A stretch of DNA of 64,000 nucleotides from Cellulosimicrobium sp. CUA-896 (GTDB lineage: Bacteria; Actinomycetota; Actinomycetes; Actinomycetales; Cellulomonadaceae), in contig NZ_MKKH01000007.1 of the NCBI RefSeq assembly GCF_001942335.1, positions 1 through 64,000 of the forward strand, in the 5' to 3' direction. Numbering within the stretch: position 1 is the stretch's first letter; every line of letters starts with the position of its first letter. Below are positions 41,101 through 50,945 of this stretch, in pieces. A program made the position numbers and the translations under genes. Under the pieces are notes generated by a model. That model was given only the letters and a program-made list of their open reading frames with translations. It searched no databases and was not told where the DNA came from.

Positions 41101-41687
41101 TCAGGCGAGCAGCCGCACGCCCGCGCCGTCGACCGTGAGGCCCGCACGGAGACCGCCGGGGCGGTGCCGCGCGGCGTACGCCTTGAGGTCGCCGCGGAAC
41201 ACGACCTCGCCGGGGAGCTCGGTGAGCATCTGCGGTCGCACCTGCCAGCGCTCGACGCCGAGGTCGCACACGCCGGCGCCTGGAGCACGTGGTAGACGAA
41301 CTCGGAGCAGAAGAACCGCGTGTCGTCCGGCGAGCCACGCCCGATGAGCACGTTCACCAGGCCCGACGCGTTGTAGGAGTAGGCGTGCGAGTCGAGCAGG
41401 AACTCGCTGATCCGCGTGCACACCGCCTCGTGCTGCTCCAGGGTCACGGGGATCTCCACCACCACGCCGGGCACCGTGTCCATGCCGCGGTAGAGGCCGT
41501 CGTCGAACCGCTCGCGCCGGAAGCACCCGACGAACGGGTTGCCCGCACGGCGCCGGCCGAAGCTGAACATCAGCTCGAGCCCCGGGTCGAGCGCCAGGGA
41601 CGCGTGGGTGAACTCGTCGCGCGTCGCGAGGGCGATCGTCCGGGACAGCACGGTCCGGCTGCGCGACAGCACGACGTAGACGTTCAC
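41101..41687 (-). CDS. predicted permuted papain-fold (YiiX/NlpC-P60-like) protein; one frameshift
   Basis: Corrected length 195 residues, beginning VNVYVVLSRSRTVLSRTIAL. His in DEFTHASLALD and Cys in TRFFCSEFVYHVL occupy the positions of the His and Cys in circularly permuted papain-like proteins that act on amide or acyl bonds. LELMFSFGRRRAGNPFVGCF is also a recurrent segment of this group. The frame breaks near 41277 (CAGGCGCCGGC lacks one G or C), after which AGVCDLGVERWQVRPQ continues. The start is GTG 41687 with a weak ribosome site. Substrate unknown; fold assignment is from memory of the motif pattern. Confidence 0.6.
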
Positions 41688-41769
41688 GACGCAGACCTTA
41701 CGACGACCTGCGACGATTCGGTAAGCCTCGACGTGCGTGGAGTGCTTGACCGCGGTATAAGGGCGCGGC

Positions 41770-42141
41770 TCAGCCGACGAGCCGCGCTCCGGGCACGGTC
41801 AGGCGCACGACGTCGCCCTCCACCGCGGCGATCTCGTCCGCGGCCGCGTACCGGTTGCCGCTCAGGAAGCCGACGGCGTCGATCCGGAGGTATCCGGCGC
41901 GCTCGAGCCGCGCCCGCTCGGCCTCGGGGATCCCGTCGCCCGTCGTGACGGCGTCGCGGACGGCGCCGATGAGCTCGTCGACGGCGCCGCGGTCGTGCGG
42001 CTCGTCGTTGGCGGTGACCCCGCCGTCGCCCATGCGCACGTCCTCGACGGTGCCGACCTCCTCGCCGTCGGCGTCCACGACCTTCATCCCCGCGTGGACG
42101 GTGGCGATGGGACCCTGGTCGTCGTTCACCGGCACGGTCAT
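41770..42141 (-). CDS. PRC-barrel-like small protein
   Basis: A 123-residue acidic protein. The start VHAGMKVVDADGEEVGTVEDVRMGD looks like a PRC-barrel or DUF2171-type beta domain, and the end GYLRIDAVGFLSGNRYAAADEI to VRLTVPGARLVG forms a second beta part. GAGGAG stands seven bases ahead of ATG 42141. It is divergent from the pectate lyase and shares the 283-base gap with the twin operators. Function unknown. Confidence 0.65.
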   Translation of the reverse strand: MTVPVNDDQGPIATVHAGMKVVDADGEEVGTVEDVRMGDGGVTANDEPHDRGAVDELIGAVRDAVTTGDGIPEAERARLERAGYLRIDAVGFLSGNRYAAADEIAAVEGDVVRLTVPGARLVG

Positions 42142-46376: not shown

Positions 46377-49300
46377 GTGCACGAATCTTCCACGGGTCGG
46401 CGATGGCTGACCCGAAGCGTCGCCGCGGCGGTGTCCGCCGCGGTACTGGTACCACTCTCGATCAGCGGGGCCAGCGCCCACCCTGGTCACGGCGAGGACG
46501 CCGAGCCCACGCCCGCGGCCCAGGAGGCCACGGACTGGAACAACTACGAGAAGGTTCTCCTCAGCAAGAACACGGGTGAGCCGATCGACCTCGCGGTCCT
46601 TCCCGACACGCGAGTCCTGCACACCGCGCGCGACGGCGTCGTGCGCCTGACCGACACCGCCACCGGGCAGACCACCCAGGTCGCGCAGCTCGACGTCTAC
46701 GCGAACTCCGAGGACGGGCTCCAGGGCATCACGCTCGACCCGAACTTCGAGGAGAACAACTGGGTGTACATGGTGTACGCCCCCCGCGTCATGGAGGGCA
46801 CGTCGCCCACCGGGGTCGAGTACCCCGAGACGACGCCGTCGGGCAGCGCCCCGAACTCCCTCCCGGACGGCGAGGACGAGAGCTACTGGGACCAGTGGCT
46901 CGGCTACAACCAGCTCTCGCGGTTCACCTGGGACCCCGAGACCAGCACGATCGACCTGGCCAGCGAGCGCGAGATCATCAAGGTCGACGCGCAGCGCGGC
47001 CAGTGCTGCCACGTGGGCGCCGACATGGCGTGGGACGCCGACGGCAACCTCTTCCTCTCCACGGGTGACAACCACCCGGGCGGCACGCCGGGCGCGAACG
47101 GCTACGCGCCGATCAAAAACGCGCCGAACATGAACCCGGGCTTCGCGCCCGTCGCGGCGCCGGCAACACCAACGATCTCCGCGGCAAGATCCTGCGGATC
47201 AACCCGATCGAGGATCTCGCGGCCGACACCGAGGTCGGTCCGGGCAGCACCTACACGATCCCCGAGGGCAACCTCTTCGACGGCGCCGAGAACCCCGACC
47301 TCGTGCGCGAAGAGATCTACGTGATGGGCGTGCGCAACCCCTTCCGGATCGACTACGACCTCGAGTCCGCCTCCCTGTCGTGGGGCGACTACGGGCCGGA
47401 CGCCGGCTCCGCGCACGCCCGACCGCGGCCCCATGGGCTACGTCGAGTGGCAGCTCACCACCGAGCCGATGAACGGCGGCTGGCCGTACTGCCACGGCCC
47501 CAACGCCGCGTACAACGAGTGGGACTACGCGACCGGGACGCCCGGCGAGCAGTTCTTCGACTGCGACGCGGTCCGGAGAACAACTCGACCTGGAACACCG
47601 GCCTCGACCAGGTCCCGCCGGTCACGGCGCCGCAGGTCTACTACGGCGACAACCCGGGCGACCAGCCCGAGGTGCTCGACCCGCTGGTCGAGCTCGGCGG
47701 CGGCGGCCAGGCGCCCATGGGCGGCCCGACCTACCGCTTCGACGAGAGCCTCGAGTCGGACGTCAAGTTCCCGGAGTACTGGGACGGGCACCCCTTCATG
47801 GCCGAGTTCTCGCAGGACTACGTGGTCGCGTTCACCATGGACGAGCTGTCGTCCGACGGTGAGGTCACGGCCGTCGAGGACTTCCTGCCGAACAGCCACC
47901 TCGAGACGGTGAACCAGCCGATCTGGGACAACGTCATGGACATGGAGTTCGGTCCGGACGGCGCCCTCTACGTGCTCGAGTACGGCGACGGCTTCTTCCG
48001 CCAGAACCCGGACGCGGGCCTGTACAAGGTCACCTACGGGTCGGACGACACGACGCCGCGGGCGGCCATCTCGGCCGACCCGATCTCGGGCAGCACCGCG
48101 CCGCTCGAGGTGACGTTCGACGCGTCCGCGACCACCGACGCGGAGACCCCCAACGCCGAGCTCACGTTCGACTGGGACTTCGACGGCGACGGTGAGTACG
48201 ACGCCCAGGGCGAGACGGTGACGCACACGTTCACCGACCTGGGCCAGTACAACGTGCAGCTGCGCGTCACCGACGCGGGCGGCAACTTCGGCCTCGCGAT
48301 CCAGCGGATCACGGTCGGCAACACCGCGCCCGAGATCACGCTGAGCCAGCCGGACGGCGCCATCTTCAACTGGGGCGACGCCGTGCCGTACACCGTCACG
48401 GTGAACGACGCCGAGGACGGCGACCAGCCGACCTGCCGCAACATCCAGTACACGTTCGGTCTCGGGCACAACACGCACGCCCACCCCGAGGTGACCGGTC
48501 GTGCGGCGGACACGGAGGCCGGCTGCGGCTTCACGATCCAGACGAGCCCCGACGCCGTCGAGCACGGTGAGGGCGAGAAGATCTTCGGCACCCTCGTCGT
48601 CCGGTACACCGACCAGGCGCAGGGCGACGTGCCCGCCATCACCGGCGAGGCCACGCACATCCTCAAGCCCGAGGTGCAGCAGGCCGAGTGGTACGACGCG
48701 GCCGAGGGCGTCGAGGTCGTCGACGACGAGGCCGCCGGTGCCGGCGGCTACGTGACGTCGCTCGACGAGGGCGACTCCTTCTCCTACTCCCCGATCGCCC
48801 TGCACCACGCCCCCACGGGCGAGGCGATCAACGAGATCACCCTCCGCGGCAGCGGTGAGGGCACGGTCTCCCTGGGCTGGACGGCCGAGGGTTCCGACAC
48901 GTCCGAGGCGCTCGCCGAGTTCGAGTTCACCGGCGAGGGCTGGCAGGACGTCACGCAGGCGCTGAGCAGCGTGCCGGAGGGCTCGGGCTCGATCACGGTG
49001 ACGAGCACGGGCGGCGTCGACGTCGACCAGCTCTCCTTCGCCGTCGGCGAGGGCCCGGTGGAGCCGGTCACGGTCCCGGTCGACCAGGTGTCGATCGGCA
49101 TGTTCTCGCTGATCCCGTGGGTCAACGAGGTCGGCCTGGAGGCCGTGCTCGAGCGCCTGAGCGAGATCGGGTTCGAGAACATCGAGCCGTTCGGCTCGAA
49201 CTTCAACGGCTACACGGCCGAGGAGTTCCGCGCGCTGGCCGACTCGTACGGCCTGAGCGTGAAGTCGTCGCACTACAACGTGAACGAGGACACGTTCGAC

Positions 49301-50945
49301 GAGACGCTGGACTACGTCACGACGCTGGGCCAGGAGTACGTCGGCTCGGGCGGCTTCCCCGCCCCGGGCATCGGTACGTACGAGAACACCCTCGCCACGG
49401 CCGAGGCGATGAACCGCCTCGGTGAGCGCACCGTCGAGGCCGGCCTGGAGAAGTTCTTCGGGCACAACCACGACGGCGAGTTCCGCACCATGTACGAGCA
49501 CGAGGGCGAGACCCTCTCGGCGTGGGAGATCCTCGTCCGCGAGACGAACCCGGAGTACGTGACGTTCCAGGTGGACGTCGCGTGGGCCGCGCACGCGGGC
49601 GTCGACGTGGTCGAGCTCCTCGAGGAGTACGGCGACCGCATCGAGCTGCTGCACATCAAGGACGCCGTCAACCTCACGCCGGCGGTCGTCCGACCTTCAC
49701 CAACCTCGGTGAGGGCGACGTGCCGCTGCAGGACATCCTGGCCGCCGCGAAGGAGGCCGGCGTCGAGCTCTACGTCATGGAGTACGACGTCGCCCCGGAG
49801 GGCGAGGAGTTCGCCACGACCGGCTTCGAGTACCTCACCGGTCTCCCGGCCGGCGAGCCCCAGGAGCCCGTGACGATCCCGACGGAGCAGGTGTCGGTGC
49901 AGATGTTCTCCCTGATCCCGTGGGTCAACGAGGTCGGCCTCCCGGCCGTGCTCGAGCGCCTGGGCGAGATCGGCTTCGAGAACATCGAGCCGTACGGCGG
50001 GAACTTCTCCGGCTACACCGCGGAGGAGTTCAAGGCGCTGGCCGACTCGTACGGCCTGAGCGTGAAGTCGTCGCACTACAACGTGAACGAGGACACGTTC
50101 GACGAGACGCTCGACTACGTCGGGACGCTGGGCCAGGAGTACGTCGGCTCCGGCGGCTGGCCGCAGCCGGGCATCGGCACGTACGAGGACACCCTCGCCA
50201 CGGCCGAGGCGATGAACCGTCTCGGTGAGCGTGCGGTGGACGCCGGGTTCGAGAAGTTCTTCGGCCACAACCACGACCGCGAGTTCACCACCACGTACGA
50301 GCACGAGGGCGAGACCCTCACGGCCTGGGAGATCCTGGTCCGCGAGACGAACCCCGAGTACGTGACGTTCCAGCTCGACGTCGCGTGGGCCGCTCACGCG
50401 GGTGCGACGTGGTCGAGCTGATCGAGGAGTACGGCGACCGGATCGAGCTGCTGCACGTGAAGGACGCCGTCAACCTCAACGCCGGCGGACGCCCGACGTT
50501 CACCAACCTCGGTGAGGGCGACGTGCCGCTGCAGGACATCTTGGCCGCGGGCCAGGAGGCCGGTGTCGAGCTCTACGTCATGGAGTACGACCGTGCTCCC
50601 GACGGCGAGGACTTCGTCACCACCGGGTTCGAGTACCTCACCGGCCAGGAGGCCGGCGAGAACGAGCGGACGGTCGCCGTCACGACCCAGGTGCGCTGCC
50701 TCGCGGGCAACGCCTACCTCGCGGTCCGTGCGCTCAACGACGAGGACGTCCCGCTCACCATCACGCTCGACACGCCGTACGGCAGCAAGACCGTCGAGAA
50801 CGTGGCGCCGGGCAAGAACGCCTACCAGGCGTTCCCCGTCCGGTCGAGCGAGGTCGAGGCCGGGACGAGCTCCGTGACCGCGACGGACGCCGAGGGGGGG
50901 ACCGCCACCGTCGAGACCGAGTACGCAGCCTCCAGCTGCGGCTGA
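46377..50945 (+). CDS. giant secreted protein: sugar-dehydrogenase-like propeller, PKD, CBM6-like, two isomerase/epimerase TIM barrels; five frame breaks
   Basis: Corrected length is about 1523 residues. Signal peptide (cleaved near GASA). Residues about 50-550 form a GSDH/PQQ-type six-bladed propeller (EPIDLAVLPDTRVLHTARDG, EDGLQGITLDPNFEENNWVY, GNTNDLRGKILRI, EEIYVMGVRNPFRI, GPDGALYVLEYG). Then PKD (about 558-645, FDWDFDGDGEYDAQGE), an Ig-like segment, a CBM6-like domain (about 768-900) and two xylose-isomerase/AP-endonuclease-2-like barrels (about 902-1165 and 1170-1430) with metal-type residues in SSHYNVN, GHNHD, VDVAWAAHAG and VMEYD. A beta domain ends it. Frame breaks are near 47158, 47425, 47574, 49684 and 50404; four fit one lost G/C, and the one near 47425 fits one extra or two lost bases. 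GTG 46377 follows AAGGAGG. The reaction is unknown; extracellular oxidation and isomerisation of a sugar or glycoside is inference. Confidence 0.85.
49077..50690 (+). repeat. tandem duplication of about 804 bp encoding two isomerase domains
   Basis: The second copy starts 803 bases after the first as written (804 after restoring a lost base), so the unit is 268 codons. A 77-base block (49232-49308 and 50035-50111) is identical in both copies, and most of the rest differs only at scattered bases. Such identity points to a recent duplication or ongoing gene conversion. Confidence 0.93.

Follow-up and report, generated by a model that had tools for sequence, protein, structure and literature searches.

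A fusion gene and its relatives

The window studied here, i.e. the whole stretch of 64,000 nucleotides taken from contig NZ_MKKH01000007.1 of Cellulosimicrobium sp. CUA-896, contains a gene that joins a sugar-dehydrogenase-like propeller of the GSDH type to TIM barrels (Table 1). The encoded chain begins with a signal peptide and the GSDH domain, continues with a PKD and a CBM6-like domain, and ends in a C-terminal module that is preceded by one or two TIM barrels. In the draft assembly, the gene is present as six stretches in three frames, separated by five breaks near 47150, 47420, 47573, 49678 and 50404. A preliminary description, made from the window alone, had bridged these breaks to obtain one gene for a secreted multi-domain chain. 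This is borne out by the congeneric genomes: all 17 contain a match to the fusion protein, and in the 16 others the ortholog is uninterrupted, with an open frame of 1310-1774 codons, which rules out independent split genes as the normal state. However, the description overlooked the C-terminal module, and the two barrels it gave the chain, although present in the window, are no rule, as nine of the 17 orthologs carry two and eight carry one.

Table 1. Coordinates of the fusion gene and its parts in the window
Feature	Position	Strand	Basis
Whole gene, GTG start to TGA stop, five frame breaks in the draft	46377..50945	+	Piecewise translation; open frame in relatives
Signal peptide, 34 residues, ASA before the cut (after 46478)	46377..46478	+	Translation, read by eye
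GSDH propeller domain with inserted loops	46533..48040	+	PF07995, 70.8 bits in the window piece against a curated cut-off of 25; profile match to soluble glucose dehydrogenase (sGDH, 1c9u) and other GSDH structures
Cys-Cys-His; the His aligns with sGDH His144	47004..47012	+	His in 25/25, Cys pair in 23/25 full-length domains, 23 of which were picked by this motif
PKD domain	48074..48286	+	PF18911, 49.8 bits
Stretch between the PKD and CBM6-like domains	48287..48679	+	No Pfam match at E 0.1
CBM6-like domain	48680..49039	+	PF03422, 22.8 bits, under the Pfam cut-off of 28.9; over it in relatives
TIM barrel 1 (AtOGE-like), frame break inside	49088..49842	+	AP_endonuc_2 (PF01261), 37.5 bits against a cut-off of 31.1; 8bvk at E 9.3e-13 via barrel 1 of the intact relative L021
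TIM barrel 2, frame break inside	49891..50645	+	86% identity to barrel 1 over the compared stretch; AP_endonuc_2, pieces of 30.2 and 18.5 bits
C-terminal module, about 95 residues	50658..50942	+	Common to dozens of large open frames in the genus

The CBM6-like domain scores 18.7 bits at L021 and 30.9 bits in the ortholog L063, with several relatives scoring higher. The frame breaks are most likely due to base errors in the draft. The assembly is 83.2% complete and consists of 78 contigs, three further AP_endonuc_2 genes in it seem split (C78, C43, C31), and the window gene at 41104-41792 is also frame-split relative to the syntenic locus L011. Among the matches listed, 7/25 open frames bearing the C-terminal module are shorter than 500 codons in the draft, versus 1/125 in three other genomes. 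It could be argued that the fusion gene is a decayed copy in this strain, since the breaks are denser in it than in its surroundings, where 8/9 other L011 open reading frames (ORFs) matching the window do so in one frame. This is thought less likely, because the draft is broken elsewhere and the gene retains 91% DNA and 94% protein identity to L021 over most of its length.

The fusion architecture is established and conserved, and not an oddity of a single strain. A contig scan with one genome per species, using peptide patterns from both propeller and barrel, yielded 30 loci. These are found in Cellulosimicrobium (12), Jiangella (7), Georgenia (4) and Agromyces (2), with one each in Oerskovia, Oceanitalea, Ruania, an unnamed member of the Actinomycetales and a contig filed under Sphaerisporangium. 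Fourteen named loci have an identity of at least 78%, i.e. the 12 of Cellulosimicrobium, that of Oerskovia and the one filed under Sphaerisporangium. In the order as a whole, 27/297 sampled genomes reach E 1e-40 or better with the barrel; excluding the draft, the open frames concerned have 345 to 2396 codons and thus include short forms as well as ones of fused length. No publication on a GSDH-barrel fusion was found in the top listings of the open-licence full texts searched. Conserved neighbours were considered as a clue to the substrate and dropped, since among the 14 loci compared with the window (L009-L022) the flanks match at L011 only. As a side observation, locus L013, filed under Sphaerisporangium cinnabarinum, is 83% identical in the fusion protein and resembles Cellulosimicrobium, a possible mislabelling.

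Barrels, propeller and associated domains

The barrel profile matches the solved structures 8tcs, 8tcd, 8bvk, 3obe, 8tct and 3l23, and 5zhz weakly. Of these, 8bvk is AtOGE of Agrobacterium tumefaciens, which according to the available text of PMC10628242 cleaves the O-glucoside of phloretin, once oxidised at C3, by beta-elimination and has no activity as the H134A variant. The same text names E39, H66, H132, H134, D163, H189 and E233 as the residues of its metal site and catalysis. These seven positions align with E, H, H, H, D, H and E in our barrels. All seven are kept in 24/24 fused barrels aligned, which come from 12 of the 20 fusion loci and were chosen by the HNH motif, so that two of the landmarks are biased by this choice. 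No other fused barrel is picked up by the profile in these 12 loci, and HNH is also present in the remaining 10 fused barrels, which belong to the other eight fusion loci. The AtOGE metal ligands and catalytic His (H132, H134, D163, H189 and E233) are thus common to all 24 fused barrels, and inspection by eye finds the seven landmarks in both barrels of the window as well. The motifs SSHYN, GHNHD, VDVAWA and VMEYD, earlier proposed as metal sites, contain most of them.

By alignment, the barrels resemble AtOGE in their TIM fold, metal ligands and catalytic His. Unlike AtOGE, which stands alone and is encoded beside a separate 3-dehydrogenase, they are located behind a signal peptide and a propeller and are often duplicated. 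Three stand-alone barrels are included in the same alignment: L054:15683-16753 lacks H66, H132 and H134, L058 lacks H66, and L053 has all seven. An identity as IolE (myo-inosose dehydratase, TIGR04379) was rejected; it is the best NCBIfam match of a frame-broken piece, with 40.5 bits against a cut-off of 290. Barrels in short frames (L083; C76:57470-58165 in the draft), 47-53% identical to the fused barrel, are matched in 17/17 congeneric genomes, and the copy in G004 ends in the same C-terminal module.

The propeller profile, built from 23 domains, matches 2ism, 2g8s (which we take to be the E. coli-type aldose sugar dehydrogenase), 7cdy, 1c9u, 3a9g, 3das and hedgehog-interacting protein. The underlying alignment (A1) was selected by the Cys-Cys-His motif from 26 proteins tried; L054:9995-15673 and the partial L058, neither of which gave the motif, were left out, and so was L060, which had been misplaced by the search pattern. 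Equivalents of sGDH His144, Arg228, Asn229 and Gly247 are present in 23/23 aligned domains and that of Pro248 in 22/23, so the His and Arg-Asn, which we take to be catalytic in sGDH, are conserved throughout. At the positions of Lys377, Arg406 and Arg408, which presumably hold pyrroloquinoline quinone (PQQ) in sGDH, the same residue is found in 0/23, 3/23 and 0/23 domains, respectively, in a part where the alignment is uncertain. PqqE is over its cut-off in 0/17 genomes and likewise in 0/14 control genomes, a comparison that has no positive control. Based on these sequence data, PQQ as cofactor or acceptor, as suggested in the preliminary description, is not supported and should be dropped from the claim.

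The Cys pair in front of the catalytic His, present in most of the GSDH domains, recalls the vicinal disulfide of methanol dehydrogenase. It is absent in one ThuA-GSDH subfamily (L054:9995-15673); in this protein and in L060, the His is retained without the pair. Compared with sGDH (1c9u), 2g8s and CAZy family AA12, as described for shipworm GSDH proteins in the available text of PMC12055684, the propeller shares the fold, the catalytic His, the Arg-Asn and the Gly-Pro. It differs from those enzymes in the mostly absent PQQ-holding Lys and Arg, the Cys pair that usually precedes the His, and the fusion to barrels.

The two enzyme parts occur together beyond the fusion itself. In 20/30 loci the barrel is fused to GSDH, and in the other 10/30 (Georgenia thermotolerans, seven Jiangella and two Agromyces) a separate barrel gene directly adjoins the GSDH gene. 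Judged by eye, export-type N-termini (twin-arginine or Sec-like) are present in 12/12 separate barrels next to GSDH, i.e. those of the ten unfused loci and two beside Cellulosimicrobium GSDH genes. The contrast drawn at the outset with barrels that are normally cytoplasmic or stand-alone is weakened by this.

In three genomes, which are congeners and hence not independent, 21/27 GSDH loci have ThuA, AP_endonuc_2 or the 3-keto-disaccharide hydrolase domain (3keto-disac_hyd) in the same gene or at most 5 kb away, versus 1.34 expected at random; six do not. In this count, two matches of one broken G008 gene were taken as one and split ThuA matches were treated likewise. According to the available text of PMC7404187, citing Ampomah 2013, ThuA is linked to 3-keto derivatives. 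At the Oceanitalea locus L023, a gene of the order ThuA, GSDH, PKD, CBM6 and barrel adjoins the ortholog. Elsewhere, three ThuA-GSDH genes cluster with a barrel gene, a pair of Gfo/Idh/MocA oxidoreductase genes and genes for sugar transport, the content expected for an outer half that oxidises and cleaves and an inner half that finishes. Separately, L057:1590-6374 is a single gene with ThuA, F5/8, GSDH, PKD and 3keto-disac_hyd domains.

Proposed chemistry and alternatives

Oxidation followed by elimination, of the 3-keto-glycoside type already suggested in the preliminary description, is the chemistry best supported by sequence comparison, because the barrels match AtOGE and retain all of its landmarks and GSDH repeatedly occurs beside domains linked to 3-keto sugars. 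We see roughly even chances that the fusion protein is a secreted deglycosylating enzyme of this kind. The CBM6-like and PKD parts would hold the protein on a glycan, where the propeller, through its conserved His and Arg-Asn, would oxidise a ring hydroxyl of the glycosyl unit to a ketone, most plausibly at C3. One or two AtOGE-like barrels, with a divalent metal and the catalytic His, would then split off the aglycone, or the remainder of the chain, by beta-elimination. This would give a 2-hydroxy-3-keto-glycal, or, with a barrel that hydrates its product as well, a 3-keto sugar. The later steps could be left to sugar importers, Gfo/Idh/MocA oxidoreductases and additional barrels encoded elsewhere in the genome, and the C-terminal module would place the enzyme with other exoenzymes.

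Pathways of the oxidation-elimination type act on gut glycans. Pathways of oxidation, elimination, hydration and reduction are also known for C-glycosides and levoglucosan, according to the available texts of PMC10628242 and PMC13273386. The same kinds of enzymes are involved here; unlike in those pathways, which are built of separate proteins, the first two steps would be located on one secreted chain. In the literature covered, oxidation-elimination cleavage of glycosides is the work of separate enzymes, and a conserved chain would join both steps. If true, this chemistry moves into extracellular glycan degradation, independent of ordinary hydrolysis, and the fusion would be ready for use in making and cutting 3-keto glycosides.

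A published relative is known from the same genus. According to Dou et al. (2015), a 17.9 MDa particle and its subunit were purified from C. cellulans F16 (PMC4562250, available text, also for what follows). For the subunit M768_06655 (Xyl_S), the Pfam order is given as ThuA, GSDH, PKD, CBM6 and PKD, and activity on xylosyl-taxane, nitrophenyl xyloside and nitrophenyl glucoside was assigned to it. The authors describe no known hydrolase domain and leave the catalytic centre and the assembly of the particle unexplained. In its free forms, the subunit was shorter by about 500 residues at the C-terminus, and neither a dockerin nor a cohesin was detected. Our fusion protein resembles Xyl_S in the genus, the GSDH-PKD-CBM6 core and the predicted secretion. 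By analogy, oxidation plus elimination would be one answer for the F16 activity and would, if true, explain a purified glycosidase that has been placed in no known family. This support for the proposed chemistry is a family resemblance only.

Several points weigh against the proposed chemistry, beginning with this relative. In the available text, the F16 activity is assigned from purification combined with mass spectrometry, the isolated subunit responded to none of nine metal ions with an increase in activity, and there is no mention of an acceptor or of a cofactor being added. M768_06655 has an N-terminal ThuA and no barrel is reported for it, while the fusion protein has barrels in ThuA's place. 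Within our own data, the activity of the fusion architecture is a prediction, and the copy in the window is itself broken. No sugar-pathway genes were recognised beside the window gene, where no family search of the neighbours was made. The match between barrel and AtOGE is distant, and the family also includes isomerases, epimerases and hydratases. Glu161 of AtOGE is replaced by Gln in 18/24 fused barrels, and the barrel in the ThuA-GSDH cluster lacks the HNH histidines. To our knowledge, GSDH enzymes oxidise C1 and not C3. Moreover, the propeller is possibly no dehydrogenase at all, because the PQQ-holding residues are mostly replaced and homologs can be non-catalytic; hedgehog-interacting protein, a GSDH homolog matched by the profile, is not known to be an enzyme.

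This last point can be extended to a propeller that only binds glycan or has a structural role, with the barrels alone acting on keto sugars made by others, e.g. flavin oxidases. The replaced Lys and Arg, the match to hedgehog-interacting protein and the lack of PqqE over the cut-off in 17 genomes (with no positive control) all fit such a propeller. We nevertheless hold it for unlikely, given the (nearly) invariant catalytic His, Arg-Asn and Gly-Pro motif and the persistent tie of GSDH to 3-keto-sugar domains. With the opposite assumption, the propeller might be an ordinary aldose dehydrogenase that oxidises C1 to lactones with scavenged PQQ, after which ring opening or isomerisation of the product would fall to the barrels. 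PQQ scavenging by apo-enzymes is known, and the Pfam GSDH membership and the profile match to PQQ enzymes agree with this. In the same, uncertain part of the alignment, however, the Lys377 and Arg408 equivalents are Lys and Arg in none of the 23 domains, and the barrels match a keto-glycoside enzyme, which makes C1 oxidation very improbable in our opinion.

The barrels could also be hydratases of 2-hydroxy-3-keto-glycals, or isomerases or epimerases of oxidised free sugars, leaving the cleavage to another enzyme. According to the available text of PMC10628242, the A. tumefaciens operon encodes two such barrels, the second a hydratase on preliminary evidence. The same text gives Glu in place of the His132 ligand in C-glycoside enzymes. 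In contrast, His132 and the catalytic His134 are both present in the 24 fused barrels aligned, and 8bvk, the structure match whose activity was taken from the literature, is an eliminase. We hold these alternative roles of the fused barrels for improbable. Starting again from oxidation and elimination by the chain itself, a bolder proposal is a secreted redox glycosidase that is complete in itself and represents a new class. Its propeller would have a cofactor arrangement other than that of sGDH, perhaps involving the Cys pair, its barrels would eliminate the aglycone, and a dockerin-like module would fix the chain in a cohesin-free particle like that of F16. Free F16 subunits without the C-terminal 500 or so residues are what this predicts; we still consider it rather doubtful.

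The C-terminal module

The module is matched 36 times in the draft and 57, 49 and 54 times in three near-complete congeners. Its consensus includes RCLAGKAYVAVRATN, NAYQSF and a final CG, and in each genome it forms the C-terminus of dozens of large enzymes that appear to be secreted (window 50658-50942; L063-L105). In 43/43 targeted G004 copies it is located at most two residues from the end of the open frame, and the same holds for four more copies in the same stretches. The module alignments A3 and A5 include a copy neighbouring that of L105; the count of 43/43 uses the intended copy. Among the families listed, the bearers include glycoside hydrolases of families 92, 43, 10, 95, 97, 127 and 76, a PL8 lyase, peptidases and phosphoesterases.

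The module was compared with cellulosome dockerins, and no match was obtained. No Pfam match is consistent across 45 copies, the widest being DUF4232 with 14/45 and a best E of 0.0035. No dockerin family is among the 22 Pfam families matched by any of these copies at E 1, and no PDB match was obtained at E 1. A sorting, assembly or anchoring tag is possible. Assembly or anchoring is considered in view of the F16 work, which according to the available text of PMC4562250 describes free subunit forms truncated by about 500 residues at the C-terminus and reports neither a dockerin nor a cohesin. If the module is such a tag, the unexplained C. cellulans particle becomes directly testable.

In the family, 51/121 sampled genomes have a module match at E 1e-6. 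With at most 41 candidates per genome scored, more than 10 matches are found in the window's genus, in g23, in the only g11 genome listed and in one g24 genome. On the enzymes at the Georgenia, Oceanitalea, Jiangella and Agromyces loci, the module profile has no match; at least L028 and L029 have a FIMAH domain at the end instead. A possible exception to the C-terminal position is the ORF at L009 501-5630, with a partial match at residues 1571-1622 of 1710.

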